Source: Leisingera aquimarina DSM 24565
GTDB taxonomy: Bacteria > Pseudomonadota > Alphaproteobacteria > Rhodobacterales > Rhodobacteraceae
Length of the DNA: 64,000 nt
Direction of reading: 5' to 3'
NCBI RefSeq assembly: GCF_000473165.1
Contig: NZ_KI421504.1
Coordinates: forward strand, 4,155,656 to 4,219,655
The position numbers and the translations under genes were made by a program. Position 1 is the stretch's first letter, and each line of letters starts with the position of its first letter. Under the pieces are notes generated by a model. It had not been told where the DNA came from. It saw nothing but the letters and a program-made list of their open reading frames with translations, and made no database searches. Shown piece after piece: positions 43,387 to 52,901 of the stretch.

Positions 43387-44301
43387 ATGCGCTGGACACT
43401 GTTTCTGATCTTCCTGGGGCTGGCCTGGGGAGCAACCATACCACTAAACAAGCTCGCCGTGGCGGGCGGGCATTCCACTGCTGCCCTGGTCTTTTGGCAG
43501 CAGCTGGCCGGGTTTGCCCTGCTGCTGGCCTGGCAGTCTTTCCGGCGGCTGAAAGGGCAGCGCAGAGGAGCCAGATCTCAATGGGGTCTCTATTTCATTG
43601 TTGCGTCGCTGGGTACGCTGCTGCCGCACGGGCTGAGCTTTGCGGCCGTCAGCATGGTGCAGGCGAACATGATGTCCATCGGCATCGCCGTCACCCCGAT
43701 GGCAGCCTACCTGATCGCCCTCGGCCTGGACCGGGAAACGCTCAGTCTCCGGCGCGGCTCCGGTCTGCTCCTAGGTGCCACGTCGATCCTCCTGCTGCTG
43801 GGCATTTCGCTCACGCTGCTGGGCCAGCAGGCAGCCTGGGGCATAGCCATCGCCTTGCTGCCCGGGCTGTGCTACGCGGCCGAGAGCAACGTGATTGCCG
43901 CCCGCACTCGCGACCGCTTCGACCCTGTCGAAACGCTGCTCTATGCGTCCGGCCTGTCTTGCCTTCTTGCTCTGCCCCTGGTCCTTGGCATCGGCACCGA
44001 TCCGCTGGCCCTTGCCACCCTCTCGCTGTCCTTTACAGCACTCATACTCTCCGGCCTGCTGCATGTTCTGTGCTACGCAGCTTATTTCGCAATCCTCGCC
44101 CGGACCGGCGCGGTCTTTGCCAGTCAGGTGGCCTATTTCGTGACAATTGGCGGTTTCTTGTCCGGAACTCTGTTCCTGAACGAGACAGCGCCGCCCGCCC
44201 TGATTGTTTCCTTAGGACTGATGGTGTTGGGGGTCGGGTTGGTGCAGCCTCGGTCACAGCAGAGACAAGGGTTGGATATCGCCGATAGTTTCAACCGTTA
44301 A
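43387..44301 (+). CDS. EamA/DMT-family transporter
   Basis: 304-residue inner-membrane protein with about ten predicted helices in two EamA repeats (residues ~5-135 and 150-290). The first begins MRWTLFLIFLGLAWGATIPLNKLAV. The ATG at 43387 has AGGAA 8 nt upstream; the longer ORF start at 43357 overlaps the TetR stop. It probably exports a small metabolite under the adjacent TetR regulator. Confidence 0.85.
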   Translation: MRWTLFLIFLGLAWGATIPLNKLAVAGGHSTAALVFWQQLAGFALLLAWQSFRRLKGQRRGARSQWGLYFIVASLGTLLPHGLSFAAVSMVQANMMSIGIAVTPMAAYLIALGLDRETLSLRRGSGLLLGATSILLLLGISLTLLGQQAAWGIAIALLPGLCYAAESNVIAARTRDRFDPVETLLYASGLSCLLALPLVLGIGTDPLALATLSLSFTALILSGLLHVLCYAAYFAILARTGAVFASQVAYFVTIGGFLSGTLFLNETAPPALIVSLGLMVLGVGLVQPRSQQRQGLDIADSFNR

Positions 44302-44486
44302 GGTCAGGATGCATTGATTTCCGATTTGCCGTGTGATGATTCGCCGTGTGATTCAGAGCTCGAAAACGAGCGGTGTACATGTCTGATCTTTTCTGGCTGG
44401 GCGACGCGCAGATGGCGCGTCTTGAACCCTTCTTTCCCAGGTCCCCCGGCAAGCCTCGCGTCGATGACCGGCGCGTTTTGAGCGGG

Positions 44487-44535
44487 AGTGAGGAGGATCA
44501 GAAAACGATCCAGTGAATCGTTTTCCCGACGAACC
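44487..44535. repeat. Inserted palindrome element, type C
   Basis: About 49 nt replacing a short expected segment between LSG and FINRN of the IS5 transposase. Its core is a hairpin, GAAAACGAT...ATCGTTTTC at 44501-44525. It shifts the frame. Confidence 0.6.
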
Positions 44536-44789
44536 TTCATCAACCGCAATGGATTGCGCTGGCGGGACGCTCCTGCTGAATACGGTCCGCACAGTGAGGC
44601 GGGACCGTCGCCCCAGCGGGGCGGCGTCAGCCCGGTGAACGCTTTACAGCCGGTGGAAGCGCTGGAGCGAGAATGGCATCTTCGCTCGAATGATGGCCGG
44701 GCCGGCCTCCGGTCACAGGGAAGAGAAGACTGTGATGATCCCCTCTCATCGAAACTGCGTTTCGACTGCCGGGCAGTGGACGCCTGATC

Positions 44790-44829
44790 CCTTGCCCGGC
44801 AGGGCATTGCGCAGCAATGTCCCGAGAGG
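44790..44829. repeat. Inserted palindrome element, type A (copy 1)
   Basis: Clean 40-nt insertion between the codons for RLI and GRTKGG of the IS5 transposase. Core: CATTGCGCAGCAATG at 44806-44820, flanked by CCGGCAGGG and TCCCGAGAGGG. A second copy lies at 51140. Confidence 0.7.
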
Positions 44830-45048
44830 GGCCGGACCAAAGGCGGCATGAACACGAAGCTGCATGCCATCTGCGACCGCCAGGGCCGGCCGCTCAGCCT
44901 GTTTATCACCGCCGGGCCCCTTCTCGGCGATGCAAACATCGCCTGTCAGGCGGCGGGTCAGCGACGACATCGGCGCGCGGGCGCTGCTAAGCAGCTTGCC
45001 AAAAGCCGGTTGGCTGCTTGGGGACCGTGGCTATGAACCGCCCCGGGT

Positions 45049-45315
45049 TTGCCGGAGGCGGTTCAAACCCTTACAGACGAAGGTGTGGCTGGCAGAGCGA
45101 GCGATGAGCTTCACGAGCTGCTGGATCGGGTTGTGGTTTCATACGATCATGATGCCAAGAACCACATCCTGGACATGCAGGGCAATTTGATCGCCATGCC
45201 TAAAAAAGCAAAACCCGCCGAAGAGGCGGGCATTGGCGATGCGGAAAGTTCGCTAAAGTTGGTTGCGGGAGCAGGCAACCGCCGTTTCCTACCGCAGTTG
45301 GTTACCGCTGTATGA
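45049..45315 (+). pseudogene. Possible serine recombinase C-terminal fragment
   Basis: The frame reads PEAVQTLTDEGV, then LHELLDRVVVSYDHDAKNHILDMQGNLIAM and SLKLVAGAGNRRFLPQL. This resembles the C-terminal end of large serine recombinases (L..RIVL.......v.l.G.la.i). The N-terminus is absent; joined to the IS5 remnant. Confidence 0.4.
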
Positions 45316-45783
45316 ACGGCACAAATGGGCGCAAAGCTGAAGGCAGATTGCGAAAATGCCGGACAGCGTTTTATACTAGCACGTCCCGCTGAGTGTTTTT
45401 AACCTGTAGAATGAAAAAAGCATTCCTGCCGATACCGCCTCGAACTTGAGAAGCAGTTTGAATCCGATCCACCAGGTGCCGGGACTGAATACCTAGACAT
45501 TGGTGCTCGCTTGTTTTGAGAAATTTCGACTGTCAGATGCACTAGGGGTGCATTTAGTTACCCTTGATCTGTGACCCAAAGGCTGGCAGATGGATTTGGT
45601 ATCCGCCGGGACCTTGAACTGCGGCCGGATTGCTGTGCCGTGTTTCATATCTGTCCGGGAGCGCGCATTTGCGCGAGATTTCAGGCGCTCACGGCGGCCG
45701 CCTGCTCGGCCGCCGGTCGGAGTAGTTGCGGAGGATCCAGGCAATCATTTCTCCTTTTCCAAAGATACGCCTTGCGAAATGGT
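45316..45783. other. Gene-free stretch
   Basis: 468 nt with no recognised gene or repeat; short ORFs lack family features. Confidence 0.4.
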
Positions 45784-46065
45784 TCAACGCCGCTTGCCCG
45801 AGAAAGCCCCCTGAACAATCCTGTCGATAGTGATTGCGCAGAAAAGGATGGCAAAGCCGCCTAGAATGCCTGGGCCCTTGGCCGCATGCTGCAGTGCCTC
45901 AAGGATTGATTTGCGGAGCCCGCCTCCACCAATCAGCGAGATCATCACAACCATAGACAGACACATAAGGATCGTCTGGTTAACGCCCGCCATTATAGAT
46001 GGCAGAGCCAACGGCACTTCTACATCCTTCAACATTTGTGCTTTGCTTGCCCCATATCGGCGCAA
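45784..46065 (-). pseudogene. Glycine betaine/proline ABC permease fragment (ProW/OpuAB-type)
   Basis: C-terminal fragment of the permease subunit. It reads YGASKAQMLKDVEVPLALPSIMAGVNQTI, then MVVMISLIGGGGLRKSILEALQHAAKGPGILGGFAILFCAITIDRIVQG. The first membrane segments are missing; the reading upstream of about 46065 is unrelated. GLGK-type patch is altered to GGLRK. The binding protein and ATPase are not in the window, so this is a leftover of an osmolyte transport operon. Confidence 0.8.
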
Positions 46066-46376
46066 AGCACCGGTCACGATAGTGAGTTTGGCCGGGAGCA
46101 GCACTCTATGAGGCAGTGAAATACTGGATCGCAGAACTGAAAGCCTGCCTTGGTCGATTGCCATCGACAGTCGCCTCTCAGGGGTTTTGAAGGCGGTCGC
46201 AAGCCAGGATCATAGCGCGGCGTGCGAATCACAATTTCGCAGCAGAACGGTGCAGGAGGGACAATACATGAGACTGTGCCTCGCCGCCGGTCGCGGCGGT
46301 ACAGGCGTTGACGCGGCAGGATCTGGGCATTGCCAACAACCAGCGGATTGAAGCACCTGCCGCTTGTTCGCACGGG
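46066..46376. other. Gene-free stretch
   Basis: 311 nt with no recognisable gene. The reading fused to the ABC permease fragment here does not resemble a permease. Confidence 0.4.
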
Positions 46377-47051
46377 TCAATTCTGGTTGCCCAACAGGGA
46401 CAGTATCTCGAGGTATTGACGGTCTTCTGCATGGTCACGCGGAGTGGCACCGTCACGGTCTCCGATTGTTTGATCTGCACCCGCCGCGACTAAAAGCTCG
46501 ACCACGGCCTGGTGATCCGGGCCACCGTCCCCCAGGATCACCGCCTCGATCAGCGCGGTCCAGCCGAGGTTGTTGACATGATCGAGCGGCGCCCCGGCGT
46601 TGATTAGACGGCGCACCACCTCGACATAGCCCAGATGCGCGGCGGCGATCAAGGCGGTGCCGTCATACGGGCTGGTAGTCAGGCCGGGGTGGTTGCCCAG
46701 TTCGATGGCCAGCGACATCAATTCGGGGTCGTCGGCCACGGCGGCGATGGTGACTACGTCATAGGCCTGCCCTTCGAGTGCGTTGAGATCCGCCCCGGCC
46801 TTGGCCAAGGCGCGCAGGGTGGCGTCCTGCGAGGCGAAGGCAGCCACGTGGGCGGGGGTGCGGCCACGCCGGTCGCGTGCATTGAGATCGGCGCCGCCAG
46901 CGGCGAGGCGGTCAATCCCGGCGACATCGCCGGTCTGGGCTGCGCGGTGCAGCCCGTCGTAAGCGGCAATTTCCGCGGCCGAGGGTGCGGTTTGGGCCAA
47001 GGCGGGCGACGCGAGGGTCAGAATGGCGGAAAACAGGAGGAATTTGAGCAT
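46377..47051 (-). CDS. Secreted ankyrin-repeat protein
   Basis: 224-residue protein with a Sec signal peptide (MLKFLLFSAILTLASPALA, cleavage near residue 19) and about five ankyrin repeats, e.g. RDRRGRTPAHVAAFASQDATLRALAKAGAD and NLGWTALIEAVILGDGG. Likely periplasmic. It lies downstream of the HbpS-like gene and may be in the same operon; periplasmic ankyrin proteins are linked to peroxide/catalase function in some bacteria. Confidence 0.85.
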   Translation of the reverse strand: MLKFLLFSAILTLASPALAQTAPSAAEIAAYDGLHRAAQTGDVAGIDRLAAGGADLNARDRRGRTPAHVAAFASQDATLRALAKAGADLNALEGQAYDVVTIAAVADDPELMSLAIELGNHPGLTTSPYDGTALIAAAHLGYVEVVRRLINAGAPLDHVNNLGWTALIEAVILGDGGPDHQAVVELLVAAGADQTIGDRDGATPRDHAEDRQYLEILSLLGNQN

Positions 47052-47107
47052 TTAATGTCTCCGATGTGGATAGGCAGTCCGAAGGGATGACCGGCCGCCC
47101 GACGGGA

Positions 47108-47587
47108 TCATTTTGCGCCGATGGCATCAAGCCCGGCGCGGGCGCAGGCCTCGTCCAGGTGGCCTCCGGGGGCGCCGCCGACACCGATGCCGCCGACCAG
47201 CGCGCCACCAATCCTGATCGGCAGGCCGCCGCCTTGGATCACCATGCGGCGGTCCATGTAGCGCAGGCCGTCATGTTGCGGGTTTTCACCGATGAAATTG
47301 GCCAGACCGGCGGTGTCGCGGCCCATCGAGGCCGAGGTGAAAGCCTTGCCCTGGGCGCTGCCTACGGTGTGCGGCCCGGAATTGTCGGCTTTCAAATGCA
47401 CCTTGGTTGCACCGTCACGGGCGACGATGGCGACGCTGACATTGTAGCCGTCAGCGGCACAGGCCCCAAGCGCGGCCTGGGCGGCCTTGGTGGCCATGTC
47501 GAGCGGCAGATAGGCGGCAGTGGGTAGCTCTTGCGCGGCCAGGGTGGCGGGGGCCAGAAGGGAGGCGAGGATCAGTTTGCGGATCAT
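47108..47587 (-). CDS. HbpS/GlcG-like secreted heme-binding protein (DUF336)
   Basis: 159-residue protein with a signal peptide (MIRKLILASLLAPATLAA) followed by a DUF336/GlcG-like domain: LDMATKAAQAALGACAADGYNVSVAIVARDGA, then QGKAFTSASMGRDT and GGLPIRIGGALVGGIGVGGAPGGHLDEACARAG. HbpS of Streptomyces is an extracellular heme-binding sensor partner. The ATG at 47587 is chosen over the TTG six codons earlier because the signal peptide starts there. It is encoded directly downstream of a two-component system. Confidence 0.82.
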   Translation of the reverse strand: MIRKLILASLLAPATLAAQELPTAAYLPLDMATKAAQAALGACAADGYNVSVAIVARDGATKVHLKADNSGPHTVGSAQGKAFTSASMGRDTAGLANFIGENPQHDGLRYMDRRMVIQGGGLPIRIGGALVGGIGVGGAPGGHLDEACARAGLDAIGAK

Positions 47588-47677
47588 GGCGTGTCTCTTT
47601 GTCAAAATCGATTTAGAGAGACTATGGCGCGAAGGGCCGGCGCGGTATTCGTAGACCTTGCACGCATCTCCGTAGTT

Positions 47678-48286
47678 CTACGGACTGTCGCGGCCTTCGA
47701 GCCATATACGGGTCAGTTCGGCCTGCGAGGTGGTGCCCAGCTTGGCGCAAATCGCGGCACGGTGGCTTTCGATGGTGCGCGGCGACAGGCCGAGGCCCTC
47801 AGCGATCTGTTTCGATGTGAAGCCCTCGGCGATGCGGTCAAGCACCTGTGCCTCGCGCGGGGTAAGCGATTGCAAGAGGCTGCGCGCCTCAGCCTTTTCA
47901 GCCTCCGCCAGCAGGCGCCGTTCCAGGATTTCATTGCCTTTCTGAATGGCGTCGATCAGGTCCTGTTCATCGATGGGTTTCGACAGAAAATCGACTGCGC
48001 CGTTGCGAAAAGCCTGCCGGCAGGCTTCGATATCGCCGTGGCCGGAGACGACGACAGTTGGCCAGCCGATGTTCCGTTCTGCCAGCTTTTCCTGAAGCTT
48101 CAGACCCGAGATCAGCGGCATCCGAATGTCGAAGATCAAGCAACCGGGGGCAAGCCCGTCGAGCCGCGCCAGAAATGCCTGAGGATCGGCAAAGGGCGTT
48201 ACGTCCACGCCGACGGTCGACAGCAGCAGGGTCAGCGCATCGCGCACTGCCTCGTCATCGTCGACCAGATAAACCGGATGTGTCAT
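47678..48286 (-). CDS. LuxR/FixJ-type response regulator
   Basis: 202-residue response regulator. The receiver domain (residues 1-120) has DDDEAV, a phospho-accepting Asp in CLIFDIRMPLISG (about residue 54), VVSGHGD and the Lys in FLSKPID. The C-terminal LuxR helix-turn-helix is LTPREAQVLDRIAEGFTSKQIAEGLGLSPRTIESHRAAI. Its first codon overlaps the upstream kinase stop (ATGA). Its regulon is unknown; the downstream secreted genes are good candidates. Confidence 0.92.
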   Translation of the reverse strand: MTHPVYLVDDDEAVRDALTLLLSTVGVDVTPFADPQAFLARLDGLAPGCLIFDIRMPLISGLKLQEKLAERNIGWPTVVVSGHGDIEACRQAFRNGAVDFLSKPIDEQDLIDAIQKGNEILERRLLAEAEKAEARSLLQSLTPREAQVLDRIAEGFTSKQIAEGLGLSPRTIESHRAAICAKLGTTSQAELTRIWLEGRDSP

Positions 48287-49821
48287 TGCGCGGCCTCCGC
48301 AATGGGAGCCGTCAACGGCAGGTCGATCCGGAAGACCGCTCCGGGGTTGCCTCCGCCATAGGAAATCGTGCCGCCCGCGCGTTCGATCAGGCGCTGGCTA
48401 AGCGCCAGCCCCAACCCGGTGCCTTCGGCGCGGGTTGTCATGAAGGGCATGAACAGCTGGGGCACCATGCCGGCCGCGACGCCGGGGCCGTTGTCGGCAA
48501 TATCGAGGGTAGCAGTATCACCGCTGCTGCGCAGCGTGATCTTGACGCGTGCCTGGGGCGTACCCTCAAGCGCCTCGAGTGCATTACGCAAGACGTTGTG
48601 GATCACCTGTTCGATTTCCACCTGATTCACTGTCACCGTGACTGGGTGGTTTGTTGGGGCGGCCTCGAGGGTGACACCCCGGCGGTGCGCCTCGGCCGAC
48701 AATAGCGCGCGGACATTGGCGATTGCATCGCGCAGGTCAATCGGTGCGGTGCCGGCGCGCTGCGGACGCGACCAGTTGCGCAGCCGTTCCAGGATCGTCG
48801 AGGCGCGCCGGGCTTGGGCGATGGTGCCATCGAGCGCCGAGGCCACGGCATCGCTGTCGCCTCGCGCCAACAGGCGCTTGCCGGCCTGGGCCTGGGCCAG
48901 GATCGCGGTCAGGGGTTGGGTCAGTTCATGCGCCATGCCACTGGCCATTTCTCCCATCGCGTTGACCCGCGCAGCATGGCTGAGCTGGGCTTCCATCCGG
49001 CTGAGGCTGGCCTGTTGTTCGGCCGCGCGCACCCGGCGGCGTTGCCGGGATGCAGCGGTGACTGCAGCATAGAGAAGCCCGGTCAGCAACAGCACAAGCG
49101 CGACCTGCGCGGGCGGCAGGAGATCGGCCGGGCGCGTCCGCATTGCAGTTTCCAAAAGCAGGGGTTGCGAGCCGCTTCCAAGAGATTTTGCGAACCGCGC
49201 CGCGCTCATACCCGAGGATTGGACCAGCACCGTGCCATCCGGCAGGGACACCCGGAAGCTGGCCTTGTCCTGCGCCCAAAACGCGGCGTTGCTGTCGAAC
49301 AGTTGGGCGGCATCGACGCTGAGCGCCAGGGCATAGAGTGCCTGATCCGAGTTCGGGCTGCGTTTGATCAGCAGGTAATGCTGCGTTTTTTCCGGGTGCG
49401 GCAACATCACCGGGACACCGGTGGAGCGCGCGGCGGCAGCGCGGATTTGCTCGGCGGTGTCGGCCGAAATGACCATCGCACCGACGATGTCCCGAGCGGG
49501 ATCCAACGGCACAAGCTGCACGTCGCCGATCCGCGGGTAGAACCTTGAAATTGTTGCTGCGACGTCGAGGAAAAGATCGTTGCGCTGTCCCGCGCCGGCT
49601 ACGGCAATGGCCGACAAAGCCGTCAGGTGTGCATCGTGTTGACCAGCCCGTTGCGAGGCAAGCCGTTGAAGTGTGGCGCTTTCGCTGTCGAGCCGGGCGG
49701 AATGAAGCCAAAACTGTATCACCGCGAGGCCTGCCAGCCCCATAACCCCCGCCATCAGAGTGGACAAAGCCCGCCGCGTTGCCTTGCTCCCGAAGAGTGA
49801 TATCATCTGCGTTGTGCTCAT
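48283..49821 (-). CDS. Sensor histidine kinase with periplasmic sensor domain
   Basis: 512-residue histidine kinase. Residues ~17-39 form a first membrane helix, an extracytoplasmic domain follows, and a second helix lies at ~230-255. A coiled-coil linker leads to the HisKA motif (MAHELTQPLTA, His near 290), then the N box (EQVIHNVLRNALEAL), DIADNGPGV and GTGLGLALS of the HATPase. It resembles FixL/DctB-type kinases in the transmitter region. It is coupled to the response regulator by a 4-nt overlap. The secreted HbpS-like protein downstream may be its sensory partner, by analogy. Confidence 0.92.
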   Translation of the reverse strand: MSTTQMISLFGSKATRRALSTLMAGVMGLAGLAVIQFWLHSARLDSESATLQRLASQRAGQHDAHLTALSAIAVAGAGQRNDLFLDVAATISRFYPRIGDVQLVPLDPARDIVGAMVISADTAEQIRAAAARSTGVPVMLPHPEKTQHYLLIKRSPNSDQALYALALSVDAAQLFDSNAAFWAQDKASFRVSLPDGTVLVQSSGMSAARFAKSLGSGSQPLLLETAMRTRPADLLPPAQVALVLLLTGLLYAAVTAASRQRRRVRAAEQQASLSRMEAQLSHAARVNAMGEMASGMAHELTQPLTAILAQAQAGKRLLARGDSDAVASALDGTIAQARRASTILERLRNWSRPQRAGTAPIDLRDAIANVRALLSAEAHRRGVTLEAAPTNHPVTVTVNQVEIEQVIHNVLRNALEALEGTPQARVKITLRSSGDTATLDIADNGPGVAAGMVPQLFMPFMTTRAEGTGLGLALSQRLIERAGGTISYGGGNPGAVFRIDLPLTAPIAEAAQ

Positions 49822-50426
49822 TGGGCAAGGCTAACATGGCGCGCTTGAACTCCAAGGCTATAAGCTCATACCAGAATGCCGACTGCTTCTGAGCACTGTC
49901 GGCGGTCACTGCGGCATTTCTGCTCCAACACGAGGATTTAGCCCGCGGCAACCATGGGAATATTTCTGGACTACCCCGTAACCGTCCTCTACCAGAGCAA
50001 ATGACAACTCTGCCACTTTACGACACCGTCTAATCCGGCTGCGTCGGTGCAATCCACCCGCGATCAATGACGGCAAAGCTGCAGGTTTCTCGGACGCCAC
50101 GCGCGACGTTTGAGTGATGCGCGGCCTTGCCTGGCGTCGGAGAAGCGCGCAAGCGGGAAATCGCAGTGCTGGAATTGGGCAGGCCAGCTGGCTCCATGGG
50201 GGTTTGAAGCGGTTGATTGCCTTGGTTCTTGTTCTGCAGGTTGGGCCAACTGCGCTCGTTGCAGGCAGCTTCGGCACGGATTTTGTGAGCTTTGAGGGGC
50301 ATGCGCCGCCTCTCGCGGGGCTCGGCAACCTTCGCACCTCTCCTATCCGGGCTGCAGGCATGCCGGATTGGCCGCAAGCGGTATCGTGAACAGCGGCAAT
50401 TGGACTTCCGGTCTTTGGCGCGCATG
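49822..50426. other. Gene-free stretch
   Basis: 605 nt between the kinase and the IS91 remnant. Minus-strand ORFs in it have no family match that I can see. It may be IS flank or degraded sequence. Confidence 0.4.
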
Positions 50427-51139
50427 TCATGCGGCAGCCCTCGCTGTTCCTGGCGGCGCCCTGGGGCGTCGTTCTGGCGTGATGGTTTCGGCGATGATCA
50501 ACCGCCCGCCGCAGCAGGGGCATGGCAGCGCGAGGACCTGGGCAAGTGCATCGGCGTCACCGGCCGTGCCATCGTGCGCGAGACCCGGATCTGACTGCCC
50601 GGCCCCGAGCCGTTCCCGGATCCTGGCGATATTGGCGGCACGGTTGCCATTCCCGAAGAAGCCGTAGTGGCGGATGCGATGCCGCCCCTTGGGCAGGACA
50701 TGGATCAGGAACCGGCGGATGAACTCGCCGGCCTTCAGGGTCATGCTGGTTTGCCGCCCGGGGCCGTGGACGCGGTAATCCTTGACGCGGAAGGTGAGGC
50801 CCCGGCCGTCCATGCGGATCAGGCGGCTGTTGGAGATCGCGGCACGGTGGGTGTAGCGCGACAGGTATGCCAGCCCTGCCCTGGGTCCGGCGAAGGGTTC
50901 CTTGGCATACAGGACCCAATCGATCCTGCGCAGCGGTTGCAGAAACGCGTCGAAGGCTGCGCGATCCACAAGCCCGGCATGATCGCCGAAGAAGTGCAGC
51001 TTCCCGGCTTTGTGCAGCCCGGCCAGCCCGTCCAGGATGAGGCGGCGGTACAGGCGTGACAGCACCCGGACGGAGAGGAAGAAGTTCCCGCGGCAGGCGA
51101 TCCAACCGGTGCCATCCGCAGACAGGCCGCCGTCCCACT

Positions 51140-51177
51140 GCCTGGCAGGCGATTGCGCAGCAATCTGCCGAGAGGGG
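51140..51177. repeat. Inserted palindrome element, type A (copy 2)
   Basis: Second copy of the type A element, inside the IS91 transposase just after HVHMIVP. Core GATTGCGCAGCAATC at 51151-51165, flanked by CCTGGCAGG and TGCCGAGAGGG. The change from C...G to G...C at the ends of the core, relative to the first copy, preserves pairing. Confidence 0.7.
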
Positions 51178-51223
51178 GGGGCACGATCATGTGGACATGC
51201 GGGTGGTGCGTCATCGCCGAGCC

Positions 51224-51252
51224 CGTCGTGTCGAAGACGCGCTTCCGGCACG
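51224..51252. repeat. Inserted element, type B (copy 1)
   Basis: 29 nt inside the IS91 transposase near TSVLHT/GSAMTHHPH. Its core is GTGTCGAAGACGCG followed by CTTCCGGCAC. It adds codons without shifting the frame. The second copy lies at 52091 in the integrase gene. Confidence 0.65.
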
Positions 51253-51751
51253 ATGTGTGCAGGACGGATGTGAGGCCGGCCCGGGCGCCAAGGTGCTTGG
51301 GGCCGGCGGCGATCCGGATCACCGTGTCCGCGCTTGATCGCATCAGCAGATTGCAGATCTCCCGCGTTCGCCAATGTCTCTCGGACCATTGGCGTTCCAT
51401 TGGCTCACTCTGCCGGGCGATGCCGGCGATTGGCTTCGGCAGCGCGAAGACCAGGTGGAAATACCGCACGGGCAGCAGCTCGGCCTCGCGCGCCGCCAGC
51501 CAGGCCTTGGCCGCACCCGCCTGGCATTTGGGACAGTGCCTGTTCCGGCACGAATTGTAGGCGATGTGTTTATGCCCGCAGTCTTCACATCGCGCGGCAT
51601 GACCGCCAAGCGCCACCGTGCGGCAGCGCTCGATGGCGTTCATCACCTTCAACTGATCGAGGCTGATATGGCCCGCATTGGCCGCCCGCCAGGCAGCACC
51701 ATGCATGCGGAAGATATCCGCGACGTCCAAATGTGATGGGGGCAAGGCGCG

Positions 51752-52507
51752 CTATGACGCGCATTTCTTGCCCTTCTTGTGCTTGGCCGGCCTCAAATCG
51801 TCCAGCAGATGCGTCGCAAAGGAATGGCGCAAAGTGTGCAGCGTCACCGGCTTGGTAATCCCTGCGGCCCGGGCCGCCTGCTTGAACAGCCGCGAAATCT
51901 GGCGGGCCGAGAGGTGTTTGCCGCGATAGCCGGGGAAGAGAACCCGCTCGGGTCCGGGCACGCCCGTGTTCTGGCTCGCGGGGCGTTCGGTCCACCACTC
52001 GCGCAACAAACCCAGAATGTCCCCGGGCAGCATCATGTTGCGGTCCTTGCGGCCCTTGGCCTGCACAATGCGGATGATCTTCTGTTCCCCGCCGTGTCGA
52101 AGACGCGCCTCCGGCACGCTGTCGCCGACCTTCAGGCCGGGCGCCATGGCGAGGATGCGCCTGACCTCGTTGCGGCTCAGCACAAGCGGCACTTTCACCG
52201 GTTCCTTCAGGCGGAAAACCTCGGCTGCCAGATCATGCCGCCGCAGGGTGACCCGGAACAGAAACTTCACCCCGGTCATGGTTTGGTTGCGGGTGCAAAT
52301 GCTGGTCCCGGTCTCGATCAGATGCAGCTGTAAGTGCTTCACGTCATCCGGTGAGACTGTCTCCAGAGATCGCCCGAGCCAGGAGGCAAACCGCTTGCAG
52401 GCCCGCAGGCGGCTGGTCGGCGATGCCGGTCCGAGATTGCGTGCCGGCCTATCCGCGATCATGCGCGCCCGAAGGGATGCCGCCGGTGCAGGAGGCTGCT
52501 TGGTCAT
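51752..52507 (-). pseudogene. Tyrosine recombinase/integrase, likely inactive
   Basis: 251 codons of a phage-type integrase. Features seen are KQPPAPAASLRARM..., LVLSRNEVRRILAMAP, EQKIIRIVQAKGRKDRNMMLPGDIL, and HTLRHSFATHLL (the catalytic HxxR). The first catalytic Arg box (usually YGCGLRASE) is missing: the reading jumps from ILAMAP to GLKVGDS, then VPEARLRHGG from the inserted element (52091-52119). The C-terminus ends before the GH and Tyr. It precedes the IS91 transposase, as in known IS91-linked integrases. ATG at 52507 follows AGAGGG. Confidence 0.75.
52091..52119. repeat. Inserted element, type B (copy 2)
   Basis: 29 nt in the integrase gene, two differences from the copy at 51224-51252. 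Falls where the catalytic Arg box should be. Confidence 0.65.
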
Positions 52508-52585
52508 GGCAAAACCCTCTGTCAACCGAGGCAAAATCACCTCGGCCAACAGCACACACCCGACATCGAAAACCGCGAAACACAT

Positions 52586-52901
52586 CCCGCTTCAGTCCAA
52601 CACCGGCCACGCAGAGCCCCTATCGCGGAGCGATTTAGTGCAAGCGCACAAAGCACCCGTTCATGCTTATTGCGGCATTCGGAAAATAGGGTTCTCAGCC
52701 GCCGAAGGCTAATGCAGCAGGCACCTTGGCGCAGATGGAACGGAACCAGTCATCGGCAGAATAGGTCAAGCCTCTGATCTTTCACTGTCTTGTTCGATGT
52801 GCTGTCGTTCGCATCGTAGGGCCGGACTTTTGCGTTACAAGCGGTGAAATCGGGCTTCGAGCCCATTTTGACCGATGCTACAGAATAGACGAACGACGGC
52901 A
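52586..52901. other. Gene-free stretch
   Basis: 316 nt with nothing recognised, between the integrase pseudogene and the LysR gene. Confidence 0.4.

Follow-up and report, generated by a model that had tools for sequence, protein, structure and literature searches.

Hairpin inserts in two insertion sequences

The window -- the whole 64,000-nucleotide stretch of Leisingera aquimarina DSM 24565 DNA analysed here -- contains a degenerate IS5-type insertion sequence (IS) and an IS91-type IS with an accessory recombinase-like gene, each interrupted by a short hairpin element (Table 1). The preliminary description of this DNA had placed the first copy exactly; the second is also present, though the limits first given for it (51140-51177) are better replaced by those in the table. 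Both inserts do disturb the transposase frame, as had been noted, and a native -1 frameshift also appears to operate in the IS5 host of copy 1. The paired swap between the copies, C...G in one and G...C in the other on either side of ATTGCGCAGCAAT, was likewise correctly read. The same genome contains a 73% identical IS5 relative (L039/L040) without the 40 bp of copy 1, and copy 2 is missing from L069, an IS91 relative. Shared ancestry of the two sites by recombination, which had been named as a possible objection, is excluded: hosts and flanks are unrelated, and there are many further sites.

Inspection by eye of the IS5 remnant brought out four palindromic inserts besides copy 1 that had been overlooked earlier, one of them (44740-44779) clearly of the same family. 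Two of the others are absent from L039/L040; that at 44917 resembles L147:2129-2168, and that at 44486 has a counterpart in the IS3 copies L485-L489. One further hairpin family, if not more, seems to dwell in ISs in the same way. The right end of the IS91-type host bears only a loose resemblance to the hairpin element.

When each copy is folded by itself as single-stranded DNA, copy 1 exceeds its shuffles in stability (z -2.66); copy 2 does not clearly do so (z -1.03), 30 of 200 shuffles being as stable. A search of the window alone for the 13-base core with 2 mismatches gave 6 matches against 3.35 expected, which is not beyond chance. No known RNA family scored above threshold between positions 44000 and 52500; the one sub-threshold match, to RT-15, lies elsewhere.

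Table 1. Insertion sequences and palindromic inserts in the window
Feature	Position	Strand	Remarks
Host IS5-type insertion sequence, degenerate copy	44298..45049	+	Matches G000:C1:4199953-4200438 and 4200426-4200704
Palindromic insert, second and distinct family, same IS5 remnant	44486..44535	undefined	GGTTCG.CGGG ... CCTCACTC ends
Third palindromic insert, same IS5 remnant	44594..44640	undefined	Bounds approximate; partly deleted in L035/L036
Extra family copy, same IS5 remnant	44740..44779	-	Unrelated stem (TCGAAAC/GTTTCGA); covariance-model match G000:C1:4200395-4200434 and pattern match
Hairpin mini-element, copy 1	44790..44829	+	Stem type A (GGGCATTGC/GCAATGtCCC); 40 bp, in IS5-type transposase
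Degenerate family-like hairpin insert, same IS5 remnant	44917..44955	-	GCGATGTTTGCATCGC; bounds approximate, assigned by eye
Host IS91-type insertion sequence with accessory recombinase-like gene	50078..52645	-	Y2_Tnp match G000:C1:4206307-4206789
Hairpin mini-element, copy 2	51136..51176	+	Stem type B (GGCGATTGC/GCAATCtGCC); 41 bp, antisense in IS91-type transposase

Structure, copy number and distribution

The element is gene-less and typically about 41 bp long (range about 34-45 bp). Its constant ends, C[ACG][CT]TGCCCGGCAG and CGAGAGGG, enclose a hairpin of varying sequence; neither TGCCCGGCAG nor CGAGAGGG is part of the stem, and stems differ widely between copies. Across the alignment of copies 97.1% of stem cells are paired, and double-sided changes number 63 against 14.5 in shuffles, bearing out the earlier proposal that compensatory change maintains the hairpin; counted by pair instead, 7 of 9 have at least one double change, a value no higher than in shuffles, 152 of 500 of which attain it. 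Template switching at palindromes can be another source of such covariation.

The window's genome contains 51 exact matches to the two end boxes (one of them probably due to chance) and none to a reversed-pattern control; a longer pattern allowing up to 3 mismatches finds 37, again with none for its reverse. The count by covariance model that had been proposed yields 90 matches in this genome and further ones in its relatives, which removes the concern that the two window copies might be the only ones. Among 198 genomes of the family, the end-box pattern occurs in 37 (control 0) and covariance-model matches in at least 86, with 32 candidates scored per genome. A class-wide scan gave matches in 9 of 385 genomes, four of them outside the family, and these four loci read by eye as ISs. 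Viral contigs were scanned with an overly loose pattern; among the matches listed, 76 were re-examined and 7 have a stem of at least 5.

Insertion sites

Homologues without the insert, which the preliminary description had suggested seeking, exist for 158 flank-distinct places, so that net insertion length could be measured: core+4 in 91, core+3 in 30, core+5 in 17 and other values in 20 (core+4 and core+3 being 41 and 40 for the commonest core). No target duplication is seen in the filled and empty pairs inspected by eye, a subset of the 158 of which L233/L156 and L005/L187 are the clearest. The site profile and the inspected pairs indicate precise insertion beside a short, one-sided, YCRTY-like target on the left, and the profile contains no TA target. 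The CRTY motif that precedes the element is also present in empty sites, and therefore belongs to the target rather than to the element. The site of copy 1 is filled at locus L233 and empty at locus L156; these two are 95% identical over 219 bp and are sister rows in a tree (support 99/100). The L233 insertion is recent (Leisingera), and the tree supports repeated insertion at one site.

Host genes

Most hosts are transposase genes, belonging to IS3, IS5, IS66, IS256, IS21, IS630, IS91 and others, and transposase domains dominate the coding segments flanking the element. Control points at the same loci, at least 2.2 kb away, fall in ordinary genes, with no transposase among the 25 commonest families. 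About 20 of 123 sites could not be assigned to a gene by eye, and intergenic copies are few among those recognised (L503, L504). Judged by the best-scoring coding segment, 52 of 117 sites are antisense to the gene, 37 sense and 28 undecided. Copies, covariation, empty sites, re-insertion and the same-locus control support the original suggestion of a very small mobile element found chiefly in transposase genes. The further claim that it lands there by preference holds as a bias of location; active preference for IS genes and tolerance plus carriage are not separated by these data.

The insert mostly breaks the host reading frame, and element-bearing host copies also show other frameshifts and deletions. 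Such ISs have nevertheless multiplied: one carrier exists in 6 copies at 98-100% identity with both inserts in each, a second in 5 copies at 98-100%, and a shortened IS3 derivative lacking about 345 bp in four copies that share one arrangement and a fifth, shorter copy. In two of the carrier comparisons no insert-free copy is more than 73% identical; in the third, relatives reach 88-90%, in short pieces.

Search for a mobilising enzyme

Neither the distribution of Y1 and Y2 transposases nor the end-box searches revealed a mobilising enzyme. Y1_Tnp is found in 19 of the 198 genomes and Y2_Tnp in 21; each is absent from 29 of the 37 pattern-positive genomes, and both are absent from 22 of these and from 59 of the 86 model-positive ones. 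Model-positive genomes make up 15 of the 19 with Y1 and 16 of the 21 with Y2, against 86 of 198 overall, an excess for which IS-rich genomes alone could be a sufficient source. This distribution does not bear out an obligate partnership with Y1 or Y2 transposases; G075 has 22 model matches but a match to neither transposase, and G066 and G128 likewise combine many model matches with none to either. None of 30 Y1 loci shows a Y1 gene flanked by the element; only L269 has one nearby, seemingly in a neighbouring, different element, and this Y1 gene was rejected as a partner, since no Y1-like frame was seen at that site in L160, L197 and L205. No HUH gene carrying the element's ends was found, and no longer parent element was recognised among 60 listed of 177 unpaired 5' boxes, many of which were either the reverse complement of the box itself or belonged to copies whose 3' box has changed.

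Nature of the element

Hairpin ends, a short one-sided target and the lack of target duplication are familiar from IS200/IS605 and IS91 (HUH) elements and from their MITEs. The reading favoured here, with a probability of roughly 0.55, is that these are very small gene-less mobile hairpins, living mostly inside Rhodobacterales ISs and mobilised in trans by an HUH-type enzyme. The folded single strand would be recognised by an IS200/IS605- or IS91-like transposase, which would explain why only the structure of the stem is kept, why the target is short and one-sided and why duplication is missing. The bias toward ISs would come mainly from harmlessness inside them and from carriage by them, since broken ISs, such as the shortened IS3 derivative, apparently go on being copied in trans; the element would thereby ride on other parasites and, no moving enzyme having been found, looks like a parasite of genetic parasites. 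It offers a widespread natural case of such parasitism, in which a gene-less hairpin disrupts transposases of many families and the disrupted ISs seem in turn to disperse it. Its mobilisation is directly testable, given clear-cut ends, numerous sites that have an empty homologue, the recent Leisingera insertion and a clear habitat. Against this reading stand the failure to find a mobilising enzyme, the one covariation measure that does not exceed shuffles, and the small number of intergenic copies recognised, of which tolerance alone predicts many.

The preliminary description had thought a mini-element of transposase genes new, yet an IS-dwelling one has a precedent in RUP of Streptococcus pneumoniae, a small non-autonomous element which, in the relevant part of PMC2229807, is described from more than 6 IS families whose transposases it inactivates. 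Insertion into many IS families is common to both; RUP, however, is 107 bp long, with terminal repeats like those of IS630-Spn1 and TA targets, whereas the element described here measures about 41 bp, consists of one variable hairpin, shows no duplication in the inspected pairs and has no recognised parent IS. The same absence of duplication sets it apart from MITEs of DDE insertion sequences.

It is doubtful, if worth serious consideration, that the element or its mobiliser actively recognises ISs or their transposition intermediates and so acts as a specialised hyperparasite or a device that silences ISs. The many unrelated IS families struck in many genera, the five palindromic inserts seen by eye in one IS5, the transposase-free same-locus control and the IS-like character of the four out-of-family loci would all fit; the visible target, however, is merely a short YCRTY-like motif with nothing common to all ISs, and carriage by mobile ISs together with purging from other genes would bias the distribution in the same way. 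More speculative is a structure-defined mini transposon of about 41 bp with a free stem, homing to ISs of every family through an unrecognised enzyme, IS-directed hairpin insertion being possibly a general form of transposon silencing in Rhodobacterales.

Short palindromic repeats are mobile and mostly lie outside genes, and their movers are often not known. A classic REP/RAYT-type or IS200/IS605-derived mini-element moved by a host Y1 transposase would share the hairpin, insertion 3' of a short one-sided target and the missing duplication in inspected pairs, and could draw on the Y1 matches in 8 of the 37 pattern-positive genomes and the 15 model-positive genomes among the 19 with Y1. It is unlikely in view of the 29 pattern-positive genomes without a Y1_Tnp match, the 30 Y1 loci (L269 being the sole doubtful case) and the absence of an HUH gene with these ends among those searched; G075 also points against it. 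The relevant part of PMC3733652 describes GTAG- and CGTC-tagged REPs as high-copy palindromes of 20-40 bp, the CGTC type being frequent in alphaproteobacteria and having no known transposase there; in REP-rich genomes they lie mainly between genes, with few, fortuitous associations of CGTC repeats with transposase genes. The hairpin element differs in its constant boxes outside the stem, in sitting mainly in IS genes rather than extragenically, and in lacking a repeat-flanked Y1 gene of the REPtron kind. As for the GTAG or CGTC tag that REPs carry next to the stem, what precedes the element is the CRTY motif of its target.

The size and hairpin of the element recall mitochondrial byps, and a functional transposase restored by translational bypass or RNA splicing was taken seriously because the carrier ISs are multi-copy; they are also nearly identical and, in two of the carrier comparisons, have no insert-free copy above 73%. 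It is nonetheless very improbable: the element lies in both orientations to the gene, where a byp would keep to one; host copies bear other lesions; and the shortened derivatives multiply too, so that trans-mobilisation suffices.

Least credible of all is an insert kept for its in-frame peptide, like the Rickettsia palindromic elements, which in the relevant part of PMC2229807 are 105-146 bp long and in frame in protein genes; both are palindromic inserts inside alphaproteobacterial genes, yet the present element is short, mostly frame-breaking and in transposases, its net lengths are mostly 41 or 40 for the commonest core, and only 17 open frames run through it over 244 distinct places, several judged by eye to be chance or wrong-frame, which largely refutes a general rule. 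A few antisense inserts do open in frame as PSRDIAAQCPAGQW-like peptides, at L237 (an annotated IS3 transposase) and at L076/L508 (IS66).

Structure and copy number of the element

The two palindromes claimed for the window, one in an IS5-type and the other in an IS91-type transposase gene, were both confirmed, and they are listed below with two further palindromic inserts.

Palindromic inserts in the window
Feature	Position	Orientation to host gene	Host and remarks
Element copy 1	44790-44829 (40 bp)	sense	insert in IS5-type transposase
Element copy 2	51136-51176	antisense	insert in IS91-type transposase
Second-family insert	44486-44535; also loci L031, L485-L489		IS5 and IS3 transposases
Third insert	44594-44640		same IS5 as copy 1; partly deleted in two other copies

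The inner 13-mer, with up to two mismatches, matches the window 6 times against 3.35 expected; the window therefore does not decide the matter, and the whole genome (5.34 Mb in 8 contigs) does. There, a longer pattern with up to three mismatches gives 37 matches and its reversed control none, and TGCCCGGCA with GAGAGG alone gives 51 exact matches against 0 for the control; one of these, on contig C1 at 1803194, has no stem and is probably due to chance. For a covariance model built from 65 diverse family members the genome has 90 matches with E ≤ 0.01, and in 87 the value is no higher than 1.2e-4 (rough E-values, from 150 scored of 5125 candidates). Many copies are thus present, which the preliminary description had named as support.

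Across the family the stems vary in both sequence and length, flanked externally by the constant boxes C[ACG][CT]TGCCCGGCAG and CGAGAGGG; stems of the ATTGC types mostly carry one unpaired base in the 3' arm, usually T. The suggestion of a hairpin with compensatory change is borne out by an alignment of 42 members sharing one length, where 97.1% of the cells are paired, double-sided changes occupy 63 cells versus 14.5 in shuffles (equalled by 0 of 500), the covariation score is 0.557 versus 0.142, and structures slid along the alignment reach at most 23 double changes, although the result, inflated by relatedness and drawn from rows picked for diverse stems, is no calibrated probability. Counted by pairs, 7 of 9 show some double change, which does not exceed the shuffles (152 of 500 reach that number). 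Single-strand folding (z -2.66 for copy 1, -1.03 for copy 2) is by itself weak evidence for a hairpin.

Insertion sites

Comparison of filled places with fetched homologues gave 158 flank-distinct places with an insert-free counterpart, homologous sites of different genomes being counted separately. The net insertion exceeds the core by 4 bases at 91 of them, by 3 at 30 and by 5 at 17, and takes other values at 20, some of these owing to poor alignments; an element thus usually measures 41 bp. It adjoins an RTY end, the left-flank preferences being Y, C, R, T, Y. Filled and empty copies are from 95% down to 69% identical, the cleanest pair being two Leisingera loci, L233 (filled) and L156 (empty), with 95% identity over 219 bp, and no target duplication was seen in the pairs inspected. 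Filled and empty copies are intermixed in an IS5 tree of 25 rows (13 filled, 12 empty), in which well-supported branches force at least 2 changes and 5 is the most parsimonious number; support is poor for 12 of the 22 inner branches of this tree, and three rows lie on long branches. Different stem types can occupy one and the same IS site.

Host genes, orientation and reading frame

The 198 distinct places surveyed form 123 site clusters; taking the best coding segment per side gave 198 segments for 117 sites, of which 194 non-duplicates were scanned. Transposase domains predominate among their Pfam matches (rve 31, DDE_Tnp_1 13, HTH_Tnp_1 10, DDE_Tnp_IS66 9, Transposase_mut 9, IstB 6, DDE_3 4 and others), with a few other families such as Meth_synt_2 (2), HATPase_c (1) and DAO (1), among 25 families listed out of 48 and out of 50. 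As a control, points 2.2 kb or more away from every recognised element were taken in 78 loci, with 34 skipped, and their 144 segments show ordinary genes, with no transposase family among the 25 listed of 130, most single-member families lying outside those 25. The location is thus biased towards mobile-element genes. Judged by eye from translations rather than by a tool count, the element sits in a transposase or recombinase gene at about 100 of the 123 sites, and some 20 have no assignment. Intergenic copies are few; among them are L503 and L504, which have a 30-base core and a GC-rich stem and apparently lie between housekeeping genes.

By best-scoring coding segment, 52 of 117 sites are antisense to the host gene, 37 sense and 28 undecided. 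Only 17 open frames cross the element in 244 places, several of them spurious, so it usually breaks the host gene; the claimed loss of frame is thus the rule, with a handful of copies apparently truly in frame (an IS3 in L237, IS66 in L076 and L508). The annotated IS3 transposase at L237:14780-15975, on a plasmid of Sulfitobacter sp. D7, holds the element in frame with about 14 added residues. The IS5 host itself seems, from a two-frame D. shibae copy, to use a -1 frameshift natively. IS5-type transposases at L236:30932-31689 and in L031 have two frames joining at AAAAAGGGGGG, likely their -1 frameshift site.

Multiplication and mobilisation

Several carrier ISs have multiplied in the window's genome. 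Besides the copy in L005, the element-bearing IS5 occurs there seven more times: three copies are nearly complete (98-99%), two stand at 94-95%, one at 98% is cut short by a contig end, and the seventh, the one in the window, matches in two parts (95% and 98%). A second carrier has six copies at 98-100%, each with two inserts, and an IS3 carrier five at 98-100%. Insert-free copies reach at most 73% identity for the L005 IS5 and 70% for the two-insert IS; those of the IS3 reach 68-69% by longest match and 88-90% in short pieces, the latter (L490-L494) being shortened derivatives that lack about 345 bp, of which four share one arrangement and the fifth is shorter. Since these derivatives occur in several copies, broken, non-autonomous ISs seem to be moved in trans in this genome, which makes bypass unnecessary as an explanation.

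The element itself may be moved by single-strand HUH transposition, to which the short one-sided target, the structure-only stem and the lack of duplication in inspected pairs point. The HUH profiles Y1_Tnp and Y2_Tnp were found in 19 and 21 of 198 family genomes, in 8 and 8 (either, 15) of the 37 positive by the strict pattern, and one or the other in 27 of the 86 model-positive ones. Model-positive genomes hold 15 of the 19 and 16 of the 21, an excess that general IS richness could explain. Both profiles are missing from most element-bearing genomes, and the mobiliser may therefore have been lost, may be too divergent for these models, or may belong to another kind.

Taxonomic range and related hairpins

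The 37 and 86 positive genomes are out of 198 in the family, with up to 32 candidates scored per genome for the model. Class-wide, with 16 candidates scored per genome, 9 of 385 genomes give a match at 1e-4, five of the same family and four of others; the four out-of-family loci, read by eye, also lie inside ISs. At least 112 stretches of a species collection match, and among the 80 matches listed 79 have alphaproteobacterial titles, the sole exception, Enemella, being probably contamination. Seven viral-collection contigs carry family-like hairpins (L337, L342, L369, L373, L379, L383, L387), and L373 shares its flank with L119 and L127. The locus labelled Enemella evansiae, L179, has two element copies and the same IS5 segment as L118.

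No description of the element was found in the open-licence literature by title or start of abstract, nor in the portions consulted of PMC10969869 and PMC3646047, the latter of which mentions many TE-linked pseudogenes in Octadecabacter. In excerpts of two other papers, RUP is reported from over six families of IS (PMC2229807), and REPs of the GTAG and CGTC kinds are described, the CGTC kind being common in alphaproteobacteria and without a transposase (PMC3733652). The second-family insert has the ends GGTTCG.CGGG and CCTCACTC around a variable hairpin.
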